From Tetradesmus obliquus (taxonomy: Eukaryota > Chlorophyta > Chlorophyceae > Sphaeropleales > Scenedesmaceae), in the NCBI GenBank assembly GCA_030272155.1, contig CP126199.1, positions 1,364,001 through 1,428,000 of the forward strand: a stretch of 64,000 bases of DNA, read 5' to 3'. Position numbers and translations under genes: made by a program. Every line of letters starts with the position of its first letter. Position 1 is the stretch's first letter. Under the pieces are notes generated by a model. That model worked only from the letters and a program-made list of their open reading frames with translations. It had not been told where the DNA came from and did no database searches. Shown piece by piece: positions 1 through 59,100 of this stretch.

Positions 1-3000
1 AGTGAGCTTTCCTTTCAGTGCCAGATGAACCCAGACGCAGCAAGCATGCTGCGGCAGGCCAGTCTGTGGGTGCCAGAATCACAGCTTGCTTGCTTGCTTG
101 CTTGCTTGCTTGCTTGCTTGCTTGCTTGTTTGCTTCACCAGTGCTCACCTTGCCGCTGGCGTTTGCGGGCTGCACATCTGCAAAGCTGTACTCTCCCAGC
201 GCAGCAGCAGCCTGTCTGTGGGTGACCAACTACAATCAAACACGAAGCGTGGTGTGCAGCGCTCACCTTGCCGCTCGCGTTTGCGCGCTGCACGTCTGCA
301 AAGCTGTACACGCCCAGCGCTGCCTGGCGGGTGCCCTTCAGGTGTGCGCAGTACTCCTGCAGGCTGCGCAGACCCAGCTGCTCGCCAGCCTGGCAGCAGC
401 AGCAGCAGCAGTAGCAGCATAGGCAGTTGCAAGGTAGCGGCGGTGTGATAATGGGCGCATGCGGGCATCAACAGGCTCAACAGTCGCCTGGTTTTGCTGC
501 CTCAAGGTGTGGTCATATGAGTAGCACCTGTTCTGCATAGCCGACCTTCCTATGTGTTGCTGCTTCGAGGAGCCGTCCGCCATCACACATTCCAGGGAGC
601 CTAGATGAGCAGCCCAGTGCACACCTGATGGTGTGTACTCCAGACAGCATAAAAAACAGCCACGCACACCAGCAACAGCTGCGTGAAAACTAACCAAAAC
701 AATAGACAGCAGCAGCAGCGCACCCGCTGCAGGTCGTCCAGGTAGTGGATTGCGAAGCCGGGCAGCTGCCTCTGCAGCGCTTGGGCCTCTAAGAAGATGA
801 GCAGGCGGTCAAAGGTGAGCGGGTCGACGTCCACGTGGACTGTCGGCGCGCTGTCTCCGCTGTCGCGCACGGCCTGCAAATCAAGTGCGTCAGCGGGTGT
901 GCGTGGGTACTTCATTAAGCAACATGCCGGCATGGAAACGGCACAAAGTCAAGATGAGCAGCCGGTCGAAGGTGAGCGTGTCGACGACCACGTGCACTGT
1001 TGGTGCTGTGTCTCCGCTGTCGCGCACGGCCTGCAGGGGCAAGGCGGTGAGTGTAAGGGCGGGGCAATGCAGCGTGTTGGTCTGGACACTGGGTGACTTC
1101 ACGCATGCAGATGTGCGGCAATAGGAAGCACTTTCCTTCGGTGAGCTCGGGCGTCGTGGAAAAACCACACGAACAACGTGAACATCTGCTGGCATGAACG
1201 GCGGCACACCCCATTCTTGCGCTATACCTGGCAGCTACACTGTGAGCAGGCATGGCTGTGGGCAGCTGTCCCAAGTGTGACCAGCAGCTGTGCTGCACAG
1301 CAAGCGTGCCGCCAACACTACCCCACACATGCACTGTGCATACATAAACATAACACCTGCTTTTCCCCACCCGCCTCGCCTTGGTGAGAGCAATGCAGGG
1401 CCGCAGCAACTTGCATTGATCACACCTAACCGTACTATGTGCTTTGCAACACCCGCCTCACCTTGGTAAGAGCAATGCAGGGCCGCAGCAGCTTCTTCTT
1501 AACTGGAAACCACTCCCCATCATTGGTGTAGACATGTACCACGTTCGTGGCTGGTGGTGCTGCTGCCCTGCTGACTGCATTCAGCAGCTGCACACCAGCA
1601 GCTGCAGCAGCTACTCTGCTCTGCACAGGAGGGGTCACCTTTGTCACGTGTGCTGCCGCATCATGCTGCTGCTGCTGCTGCTGTAAGGCTGCACTGTTGG
1701 GGTTGGCGTCTGCGACTGACAGCTGCAACAGCTGCTGCTGTGTAGCAGTTACTGCTGCTGAATCTGCTACGTCGCCAGGCTGCTGCTGCTGCTGCTGCTG
1801 CTGCTGTTGCTGTTGGGACAGTGCTGTCGTCATGTACACAGTAGTGTCCGGTGTCAGCAAGCCCCTGCATCCATTCACAGAGTCAAGGCACCATGTTATT
1901 CGCCTCAGCATACCAGACCCACACAACAAGTTCGCTAAAAACGACACGAAATAAAAGGCTGGGCCACACTACCAGGCAATGCTGCTGCACCCCTTGGTCT
2001 GTTTCACGCTTAATTCCAATCAGAGCCACACCTGAAGCAATGGTACCCCAGTGCCTCCTGCTGCTCCTCAGCGGTGAGTGTGTTGGCGGCTGTTATGCGC
2101 AGCAGCAGCGGCGGCAGCCCTGGTACATCCGCCACCACATACTGCAGGATGATACAAGCAATTGCAGACAGCATGATCAGCCAACCAGTGTTGTACATGG
2201 CAGCTCCAGCACCACATACTGCAGAACATCACAAGCAAATGCAGACAGCGGGCAACAGGATCGGCCATATCCAGTGTCACACCTGAACTGATAACACAGT
2301 GATTGTTGGGAAGACTGGAGAAGCAGCCACTATCAGCCGGAGCAGGCTGTGGCTGCTCTGCATTTGAACATTAGCCTGGTTGATCGATCAGCTGGTAGGC
2401 AGTCAGGAAGTCAGGCAAACGGTTCCGACCTGTCGACTGCACGCAGCGCACCTCATTGACAGCTAACACCCGCCAGCAGCACTGCTTGCAGAAGGCCCGA
2501 GTGAGCGCCACGGCATCCACATGCACTGCCTGCTGCTGCTGCTGCTGCTGGGCGTGCAGCAGCCGCACTTCGCAGTCCAGATCTGTCAGCTCGAAGGGCA
2601 TGTCAACAGCTGCTGCTGCATCTTCCATGTCTTCGTTGCTGTCATCAGCTGCTTCCTGCATGCTTTGTTCTGCCTGCTGCTGCTGCTGTTGCTGTTGCTG
2701 GTCTTCTTCTTCTGAGCTGGCTGCTGCATCATCAGCACCTGCAGCGCTGCTGTCGTGCTGGAACACGCTGCTCAGGCAGTTCAAGCAGAGTGAACAGCAG
2801 AAGGCAGCAGCAATGGCAGTGCTTGGGTGTGGGCAGCAAGAGTTTCCACATCACTCTGTTTGTTTGCGCACTAGAAACAGTCATCAACCTCGGCAGCAGC
2901 TGCCAAGTCTGCGTATGCTGTGTGTGCTGCTGCAAGCAAGCAGTCGCTTCAAGCATGCCAGCAAACATCAGCACCAGAGCTTCCATCGTCAAAACAACAT

Positions 3001-56180: not shown

Positions 56181-59100
56181 ATGCGTGTACAGTCGCAGTT
56201 CGTCAGTGTTGGCGTGAACAGGATAGTAAATGCTCTGGACTGGGGCGACAACGGGCTGATAGCGTACGCAGGTCACCATATCGTCTGCATATACGATCCT
56301 GAGGTAAGCATCAGGTTTGAATCAGTGCTTCTATAACTTGTTGAGGCGCTCAACAACGAGTGGCGACGACACGGACAAAAGTGGCTTGACTGCTGCTGCT
56401 GCTGCTGCTGCTGCTGCTGCTTCTGCTGTTGTCTCCTGCTGCCAATTATGTAGACTGCAGAGGTGCTTGGTACTCTCACAGGCCACACAGGTCAAGTGAA
56501 CTGCGTCAAATGGCTTCCAGTGTCAGGTAAGGGCAGCCAAGCACTCCAATGTGTACGTCTTGACAAAGCACCGTGTCACTGCATCAAATTAAACCATCCT
56601 CCAGCTGCTTTAGGGACTTGTTTGTTAGTTGTAGATCAACGGCAGCAACCATTCCAGCAAGATTAGCATGCATTTGCGTTGATCATGTGCACACCAGGAC
56701 ATGTCATGCATAGAGCAGCATACTGCAAGCAACCCCATCAGTCATCACTCCTGCCTACAAATGCCTGCCGCCCGCAGTGTGCCCGCCTGGCGTGTCGCTG
56801 CTGCTGTCTGGTGCTGCCGACAGCAGCATCAGGCTGTGGGCGTGGCATGGCCGCAGCCACAGCCCTCCATGGCAGTGCCTGGCAGAGCTCAAGGTGGGAC
56901 GGCACTGCTTGCCAAACACCTGCAGCTGCTGCACACAACTGTGTGTGTTTTGACAGGCCAGGCAACATGCAGGCTGTTGCATAGCTTGTGCTTGTTCAGG
57001 AAACGGACTGCAATTGCTGTGAACCTTGGTGCTTGCGCCACAACTACAGCCCTCCATGGCGGTGCCTAGCAGAGCTCAAGGTGGGACGGCGCTGCTTGCC
57101 AAACACAGATCTAGCAGCTGCCACATAAACAGCCATGTTATACATGTGTTATGACAGGCCAGGAAGCATGCTCTGTTGCATTGCTTGTGTGTGTGGCTGC
57201 ATTGTGTGGCGTGATACGCCTTCAGGGTGCAAAAGCACAGCTTCATGTGCGCCGTTGCTGATGCTGATGCTGGCGTTCGTGTTGATGGCGCGATCATCAG
57301 CTTGTACCCTGATGCGCTACCTGACCGACGGCATTGGACTATGGATTCTATGACGCTGTGCTGCTTGCACCTCTTGCACCTCTGTTGTATTTATGCATGC
57401 TGCTGCTGCTGCTGCTGCTGCTGCTGCTGCTGCTGCTGCTGCTGCTGCTGCTGCTGCTGCTGCTGCTGCAGGCGCACCAGAGCGCAGTCACCAGCCTAGC
57501 TCTGCACCAGCTGGACGCTGACACACTGCTGCTGGCCAGCACATCAGCAGACCCCCAGCTGCAGCTCTGGCACTGCAGCCACAACAGCAGCAGCAGCAGC
57601 AGCAGCAGCAGCGCAGACCTGCAGGCGAGGTTTGGCGCAGCAGCATGGCAGCTGCAGCCTCCGGTGCATGTTGGCAGCCAGATTCAGCACTGTGTGGCAT
57701 TAGCAGAGCTTCCGGAAGATCCAGGATGGTTAGTCATGGCTACGGGAGGTACTGACTGCAGCATCCGGCTGTTTGTGCGTGGACCAGCAGCAGCAGGTCC
57801 TGCAGCAGATGGGAGTGAAGCAGCAGCAACAGCAGCGGATGCTGGCGGCGCGCAACAGCAGCAGCAGCAGCAGCAGCGCTTTGTGCTGCAGTGTCAGCTG
57901 AAAGGTCATGAGAACTGGGTGCGTGCGGTGCAATTTGCGCGCGTGGCGGAGCCGGCAATGGGCTTGCCGGGAGGGCAGCGCGTGTCGCTGCTGCTGGCAA
58001 GCGCCGCACAGGACAGGTGCGGCAGATTGCTGGTTTATATTCAGTGGTGTGGATGATATGTATGTGTGCTGTGTAGATCTGATGTGTTATTCAGCGGCAG
58101 TGCGGTGCGGCGGTGGCGCGAGGCTGCGCACGCGTGTGCAATTCTGTCGGGCGTCACCACACCAGCACACTGCATTATGCTGACCTGGCAGCGCATAATA
58201 CAACCACAACATGTGTGTTGGCACCGCCAATGCCTTGGGCACACCACAAAACACATGGTGCTGATCAATGCGATGCAAATGATGTGTGTTCTGCTGTCTT
58301 GCAACTGTGCCCGCAGGTATGGCCGCGTCTGGTGCATCACAACCGACGCCTCCCGCAGCAGCACCACGGACCTCCCCGCGCCACCTCCAACAGCAGCAGG
58401 CAGCAGCAGCAGCAGCAGCAGCAATGCGCCAGATGCTCTTCGCCAGCTCATCACGCGCTATGCACCCCGGCCTCACCTCTCAACCCCCAGCAGCACTTAC
58501 TGGGTGAGCTTAGAAGCCTTACTAGTAGGCCATGAGGATTGGCTACACTCCATCAGCTGGCGGCCCATCCCAGCAACCCTGTCCACCCCAGCAACCTCAG
58601 CAAGCAGTGCTGCTGCTGCTGCTGCTGCCAGCAGCAGCAGCAGCAGTGTGGCTGCCAGCAGGCGGGATCTGACGCTGCTAAGTGTGAGCCAGGACCGCAG
58701 CATGATGCTTTGGAGTTATGATGAGCCAAGTGGGCTGTGGGTGAGCGAGGCAGCAGTTGGAGATGCAGGGGCAAGCTGCCTAGGGTTCTACGGCGGCGCT
58801 TTTGGGCCTAACGGAGACTGGCTGGTGGCGCATGGCTTCACCGGAGCTCTGCATTTGTGGAAGCAGCAGCAGCAGCAGCAAGATGAGGGGAAGACACTGG
58901 GCAGTAGTACAGCAGCAGCAGCAGCAGCAGGACTGGGGTTGGGGCTAGGTGGCAGCAGCAGCAGCAGCAGGTGCAGCTGGGTGCCGCAGCATGCATTAGG
59001 AGGGCACTATGGTGCTGTTGTGGACCTGGCTTGGGGTGGCGATGGCGGCTGCTTGCAGAGCGTGAGCACGGACCAGACTGCGCGGCTGTTTACCGGCATC

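Follow-up and report, generated by a model that had tools for sequence, protein, structure and literature searches.

Roughly one sampled intron in five in the green alga Tetradesmus obliquus holds a copy of the end of a neighbouring exon. Such a copy is here termed an echo, meaning an imperfect copy of an exon end in the neighbouring intron, with donor copies lying downstream of the exon and acceptor copies upstream. The sample is 344 kb, made up of a window of 64,000 nucleotides (positions 1,364,001 to 1,428,000 of contig CP126199.1, assembly GCA_030272155.1; contig C9 in the sample) and fourteen 20 kb pieces of the same genome (104.7 Mb, 17 contigs). The pattern is real and general, and the best explanation is probably that tandem duplication of units of about 118 bp is frequent and undirected, that its products persist where the coding sequence is left with one intact copy, and that exchange anchored on the exon has acted on them since.

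Genes were predicted with a self-training de novo hidden Markov model (HMM), trained on 264 kb (the window and ten of the 20 kb pieces, from ten contigs) and frozen for prediction in a further 80 kb held out. The trained model has a sharp splice consensus, CAG/GTGAG at the donor and TGCAG/G at the acceptor, and in the training set its models comprise 58 genes and 204 introns with a median length of about 300 bp. At an identity of at least 24/30 over the exon-terminal 30-mer, 27 of the 196 donors and 22 of the 196 acceptors in the 264 kb have an echo, against 0/196 in each control, for which the introns were reversed and searched in the same way. The hold-out has them at 8 of 59 donors and 4 of 59 acceptors (control 0). 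For all 344 kb, and for the count of copies at splice sites in the window, the threshold was at least 23/30; in the 344 kb search simple repeats were masked and 400 bp past each junction were searched, even where the intron is shorter, and 41 of 232 donors have an echo downstream and 32 of 226 acceptors one upstream, against none in the reversed controls. Restricted to genes with two or more introns, the count is 48 echo-bearing introns of 245 and 20 echo-bearing genes of 43.

In two arrays the gene finder made exons of echoes or misplaced boundaries (S12 16301, 16522 and 16552; S02 19817). These four sites are excluded from the synonymous and nonsynonymous comparisons and their simulations, the counts of stops and of echo-specific changes, the CpG skew, the intron-half homology, the shift for n=44 and the exon share of the unit. 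They are retained in the counts at 24/30 or better, the copy alignments, the intron lengths, the 344 kb counts and the counts per gene and of dinucleotides, and three of them are in the shift statistics for n=37. The sets of primary echoes vary with the limits placed on length and shift (n = 37, 44, 45, 49 and 56).

The splice dinucleotide is GT or AG in 89 of 100 echo copies and GC in 3 more, the artefact sites included. In the window there are 17 copies at 11 splice sites (13 GT or AG, 2 GC, 1 AT, 1 AA), in keeping with the 18 canonical, 2 GC and 1 lost of 21 tallied in the first-pass annotation of the window, which had reported the echo pattern, now borne out and replicated in the hold-out, along with the downstream and upstream placement of donor and acceptor copies, which also fits. 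That annotation counted echoes in six of nine multi-exon genes. The number holds, since five of the nine genes with two or more introns have an echo at 23/30 or better and a sixth (18733+) has one with a 2-nt gap, but ELP2 is not among them. No splice-boundary echo is present in the HMM models of the ELP2 region, where there are instead two exonic duplications (61808, 62202) and one upstream non-coding duplication (56850–57189). The labels ABC1 kinase, protein kinase and HAUS3 were confirmed by Pfam, which supports these window models, and WD40 repeats were found in the ELP2 region. There was no Pfam match for the BTB-like protein or for the one open reading frame (ORF) tested of the 'OPR/RAP' gene, and the remaining window proteins tested had none or marginal ones. 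An assembly artefact is judged unlikely from the assembly sequence, as the first-pass annotation had held, because the copies differ from one another in many ways and the arrays have distinct histories.

When the masked window was compared with itself by BLAST, 49 pairs of repeats lay no more than 3 kb apart, 47 of them direct and 2 short palindromes; in the 264 kb, inverted pairs with separate arms 600 bp or less apart were looked for and none was found. In S16 one gene has echoes in 14 of its 32 introns. Strong clustering by gene was considered and set aside, as the heterogeneity over 43 genes is modest and was reached in 162 of 5000 simulations. The fraction of echo-bearing introns per gene rises with the GC content of third codon positions (GC3; rho 0.44, p 0.0035, 43 genes). 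The most extreme case seen is a 1134 bp intron in piece H28 (10038–11171; locus L029, about 38–1171), in which the end of the exon upstream is repeated seven times, mostly with GTGAG-like donors and with G/T-rich spacers.

A typical echo consists of 20–80 bp of exon end with the splice consensus. In 46 of 80 copies, by our count, the similarity on the intron side ends 9 bp or less from the junction, while that on the exon side continues. Shifts from copy to copy cluster tightly (for n=37, mean 118 and sd 20; for n=44, mean 116 and sd 19.5), longer blocks go with shorter spacers (r=-0.51), and an equally tight shift was obtained in 0 of 10,000 permutations, so that what stays constant is the length of the unit and not that of the visible block. 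There is no excess of shifts that are multiples of three (12/37, our count). Aligned against a background of other introns, 33 of 56 primary echoes have homologous intron halves at p<0.05, and 21 at p<0.01; the remaining 23 fall short of p<0.05, five of them with p>0.5. In most cases, therefore, exon end and adjoining intron were duplicated in tandem as one complete unit, and the intron half then faded. Insertion of a block with random filler, proposed for the sharp edges at the splice site, is rejected as a general cause on the constancy of the unit and the homology of the intron halves. By eye, copies begin in mid-exon without a splice site at their far edge, as bears on alternative-exon duplication, and the spacers listed look unrelated to each other, as bears on introner elements. 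Six of 29 full-unit arrays cross two predicted junctions, and a few echoes were predicted as micro-exons by the gene finder, as bears on intron gain by tandem duplication (the AGGT model). Introns with echoes are longer than those without (median 497 bp, n=49, against 270 bp, n=216), and it appears that much of the intron length in this genome comes from these duplications.

Duplications of the same kind are seen elsewhere. At 3 of 52 predicted stop codons in the 344 kb the coding end is copied into the 3' untranslated region (UTR), with 0 in the control; the coding halves are identical at 110 of 117 positions and the UTR halves at 86 of 116, gapped, yet homologous (p 0.002, 0.006 and 0.02). 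In S12 18200–18500 (locus L013, about 8200–8500) the copy in the gene's own 3' UTR takes in the stop codon and contains an insertion of one lysine codon, the coding half being near-identical and the UTR half diverged. Since these echoes have no splice site, a role in splicing cannot be the general cause of the echo shape. Start-codon echoes were called at 3 of 54, but two proved by eye to be mis-called (an acceptor and a coding-end copy), and they are not claimed. The 29 full-unit duplications comprise 20 at junctions, 3 in exons, 3 intergenic, 2 at gene edges and 1 confined to an intron, and all three of the wholly exonic ones have periods divisible by three (153, 120 and 96). In these 29 cases, and in the 33 echoes with homologous intron halves, the direct copies are adjacent and take in the whole unit with its non-coding part, and with the stop codons included no single kind of site accounts for them.

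Windows of sequence with a local partner make up 8.9% at junctions, 6.9% in exon and 2.0% in intron 60 bp or less from them, 6.6% in intron at 60–150 bp (267 of 366 partnered with exon), 1.5% in deeper exon and 0.7% between genes. Near the junction these figures agree with the junction excess among full-unit duplications, yet 5.2% of intron windows more than 150 bp from a junction also have a local partner (307 of 310 within the intron, echo–echo pairs and intron-only duplications being pooled). The mutational process looks general, and which of its products survive seems to depend on an intact copy of the coding sequence being left.

Among 18 clearly homologous but not near-identical echoes, substitutions stand at 19.5% in intron halves against 5.6% in exon halves (ratio 3.5, confidence interval (CI) 2.5–5.1), where a ratio of about 1.5 would be expected, on our own estimate, with one constrained and one free copy; the intron halves also gather many more insertions and deletions. 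Between the real exon and the echo, the proportion of synonymous differences (pS) is 0.157 and that of nonsynonymous differences (pN) 0.042, so that pN/pS is 0.27 (56 primary echoes); it is 0.255 for 45 echoes in the first 264 kb (bootstrap CI 0.18–0.35). Intron-half divergence is 0.165 in the 21 clearly homologous events, or 0.195 without the near-identical ones. This is close to pS; the neutral ages are thus consistent, and the deficit is in nonsynonymous change. By our arithmetic the echo branch behaves as if it were half constrained (omega about 0.45). In 22 arrays with at least two echoes, 41 of 85 echo-specific changes are synonymous against 29% expected, a skew that could come in part from serial copying of an exon that was itself changing and that lies partly at CpG sites and A/T third positions. 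There are 4 stops in the 645 codons of 45 primary echoes, some gaps are present, and many distant copies have decayed. The echoes look like tolerated remnants that make introns longer, but they decay unexpectedly slowly and are not plain neutral debris.

Three arrays in S16 bear on how this could arise. At donor 4394 the spacers are identical (50/50) while the exon halves match at 52 of 60 positions; at acceptors 8666 and 15723 the exon halves are identical and the intron sides at the array end are unrelated. The histories of exon and spacer have thus been separated, a pattern to be expected if the exon served as the anchor for unequal exchange or gene conversion.

The preferred account can be set out as follows. 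Short tandem duplications, typically of a unit of about 118 bp, would arise frequently and without need of a splice site. Those crossing a boundary would survive where the outer coding copy stays intact, the inner copy becoming intronic or, at a stop codon, part of the 3' UTR, a geometry that the gene models show; the outer copy alone would presumably be used. The non-coding half, diverging about 3.5 times faster by substitution in the 18 alignable events and gathering many indels, would fade to leave an exon fragment with its splice consensus. The coding half may be kept similar by repeated re-expansion, contraction and exchange, whether through gene conversion or through unequal crossing-over, and possibly between alleles. 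An echo would then have served for some of its past as the functional copy, which would give an intermediate pN/pS. Old echoes would go on seeding new full-unit arrays at junctions, while intron-only duplications would lose the homology needed, and re-expansion of old echoes may account for the junction excess. Echoes would lengthen introns and mostly be spliced out unused. Both the low pN/pS and the junction excess are thus attributed to recurrent, exon-anchored unequal exchange, itself a step that we infer.

Several results weigh against this account. A freely evolving echo simulated at equal rates under four CpG and GC settings has a mean pN/pS of 0.45–0.53, and in each setting 0 of 300 sets were as low as the observed value, which is about half the neutral one; mutation bias at CpG or GC, tried as a cause of the low value, is therefore insufficient at equal rates. 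The value of 0.27 would have to be explained through exchange. Placement also departs from what undirected duplication would give, since 20 of the 29 full-unit duplications are at junctions against 16.5% at random for 118 bp units or 28.6% for 236 bp spans, and 1 of 29 is intron-only against 21.8% or 14.2%; neither a placement independent of junctions nor a neutral rate was found. The exon share of the unit is below that of random placement (mean 53 against 69 bp, n=44, Kolmogorov–Smirnov p 2e-5), a figure biased by truncation through decay. Seven of 56 echoes have exon halves at least 97% identical and no intron-half homology detectable at p>0.05. The partial exonic pair at S16 7169, 83 bp lying in predicted exon in both copies, has a shift of 245, which is not a multiple of three, and longer introns give more room in which to find echoes, though the chance level in the control is 0.

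A different weighting of the same observations has duplication itself in this lineage favouring the edges of coding regions, the unit, of about one sub-nucleosomal length, straddling the junction, with echoes kept in part as exchangeable spare exon ends, introns growing by accretion of exon ends and exon ends recurrently swapped with their echoes; this is possible, if not likely. Selection on the echoes, as decoy or poison splice sites or as short alternative exons included in some of the transcripts, is unlikely; selection on them as coding exons, considered on account of the low pN/pS, may have acted. The splice dinucleotides are kept in most copies although intron sequence a few bases off is often unalignable, the coding halves have a low pN/pS and a synonymous skew, and the relation with GC3 points the same way. 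The stop-codon echoes, however, take the same form without splicing, the echoes contain stops, gaps and many decayed distant copies, their shifts show no preference for multiples of three, and the micro-exon called in the ABC1 gene would duplicate nine residues within a kinase domain. The roles as splice decoys, alternative exons or a route to new exons raised in the first-pass annotation have no direct support here, while its simpler alternative, undirected tandem duplication tolerated if the intact exon survives, fits best.

It is rather doubtful that exon end and splice site are copied together by a junction-specific process, RNA-templated or chromatin-positioned for example, with edges sharp from birth and an unrelated spacer. 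The near-perfect exon halves without detectable intron homology would be expected of it, as would the abrupt end of similarity just inside the intron and the junction excess, but it does not accommodate the homologous intron halves, a constant unit in place of a constant block, or the duplications in intergenic DNA, within exons and around stop codons. Purely neutral duplication and decay, with the boundary pattern arising solely because one copy of the exon half is conserved, is improbable. Geometry and survivorship explain direction and location under it, duplications do occur in all compartments, and the synonymous skew falls partly at CpG and A/T third positions; against it stand the divergence ratio of 3.5 and the simulations, which approach the observed pN/pS only with rates in the functional exon two or three times those in the echo (means 0.34 and 0.28).

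A comparable event is described for a potato RdRp gene, in which a short tandem duplication across an intron–exon boundary gave a new intron spliced through a cryptic donor (PMC4974935). As here, the duplication spans an acceptor and copies the exon start with the intron end, and a second duplication, of 83 bp, lies in the gene's first intron. Unlike that single locus, there are here dozens of loci with a narrow unit size, repeated arrays, and donors, acceptors and stop codons affected, and the gene models need no new intron. Internal gene duplication has been described as common (Gao and Lynch 2009, cited in PMC4974935), and the systems of Gao and Lynch 2009 and Hellsten 2011, as they are cited in PMC4974935 and PMC3443670, likewise involve short internal tandem duplications that interact with splice sites. 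There, exonic segments are duplicated to give introns, whereas in this genome it is junctions already present that are duplicated, with the additional copy left in the intron. Patch-mediated break repair in rice also reportedly gives short tandem duplications (Vaughn and Bennetzen, 2014, are said to have described it). In mammalian cells small tandem duplications come from staggered breaks filled in by CST/Pol alpha-primase, and the duplications are small and tandem, as here, and arise independently of homology from filled-in single-stranded overhangs, as those here may too (PMC8355091). Persistence at coding edges over evolution is additional in the present case. Titles and the starts of abstracts in the open-licence literature gave no report of such a density of echoes, of a unit of about 118 bp or of the coding-half asymmetry including stop codons, which is weak evidence.

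If one intron in five has copies of exon ends, short tandem duplication would be a main force lengthening introns in this genome, and echoes a constant source of cryptic splice sites in their native context. Old proposals on intron growth, exon creation and splice-site competition then become directly testable in one organism. There is also a warning for annotation, in that gene finders may call echoes micro-exons.

Table. Echoes and other local duplications in the window (positions in the 64,000-nucleotide stretch)
Feature	Positions	Strand	Details
3' end of gene 135–4198	139–323	-	67 bp block at 139–205 and 257–323, 118 bp apart; donor 266; BLAST pair 90%
Acceptor echo	794–1035	-	exon start 794–873, copy 951–1030; shift 157
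Donor echo	1327–1494	-	exon end 1462–1494, copy 1380–1412; GC donor; shift 82; intron half alignable
Weak acceptor-side echo	2133–2249	-	40 bp, 85%; shift 77
Acceptor echo	3091–3236	-	exon start 3091–3125, unchanged copy 3197–3231; shift 106
ABC1 kinase gene, donor echo	6640–6960	+	exon end 6640–6704 with donor; 2.6 tandem copies, period about 124
Kinase gene, donor echo	13977–14132	+	exon end 13985–14030, copy 14082–14127; shift 97
Kinase gene, donor echo, 3 copies	14551–14927	+	14551–14585, 14674–14708, 14795–14829; one echo with GC donor; Pfam kinase
Donor echo with 2-nt gap	20758–20918	+	shift 107
Coding-end copy past own stop codon	28966–29252	+	shift 219, by eye
HAUS3 gene, acceptor echo	43667–43873	-	full-unit duplication, shift 103; Pfam HAUS3
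HAUS3 gene, weak acceptor-side duplication	44116–44289	-	shift 129
HAUS3 gene, acceptor echoes	47086–47427	-	shifts 133 (AG lost to AA) and 278
Acceptor echoes of exon 51554–51593	51252–51593	+	copies 51422–51461 and 51260–51296
Echoes of donor 51642	51595–52623	+	shifts 243, 358 (GT lost to AT), 509 and 937; 1053 bp intron
Acceptor echo	54373–54555	+	exon start 54511–54555, copy 54384–54428; shift 127
Non-coding tandem duplication	56850–57189	.	period 187; upstream of WD40 gene in HMM model
Exonic tandem duplication	61808–62111	+	period 153 = 3 x 51
Exonic tandem duplication	62202–62463	+	period 120 = 3 x 40

The echo copy at 139–323 extends into the predicted last exon of its gene. Intron-half homology is borderline for the echo at 3091–3236 (p 0.05–0.06) and undetectable for that at 13977–14132. 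In the ABC1 gene an in-frame TAG is seen by eye in the third copy of the array, and the finder called the echo at 6801–6827 as an in-frame micro-exon of 27 nt, repeating the nine residues LLEELDYMQ inside the kinase domain. In 61724–63316 both exonic duplications are in-frame and within the predicted last exon of the WD40 gene.

The divergently oriented genes 33512–36627 (-) and 38603–41205 (+) have, by eye, long stretches of protein in common, and there was no Pfam match for the one ORF tested of each. Many CAG/GCT trinucleotide runs are present in the window, in and out of predicted coding exons, and give long runs of Q, A, S and L.

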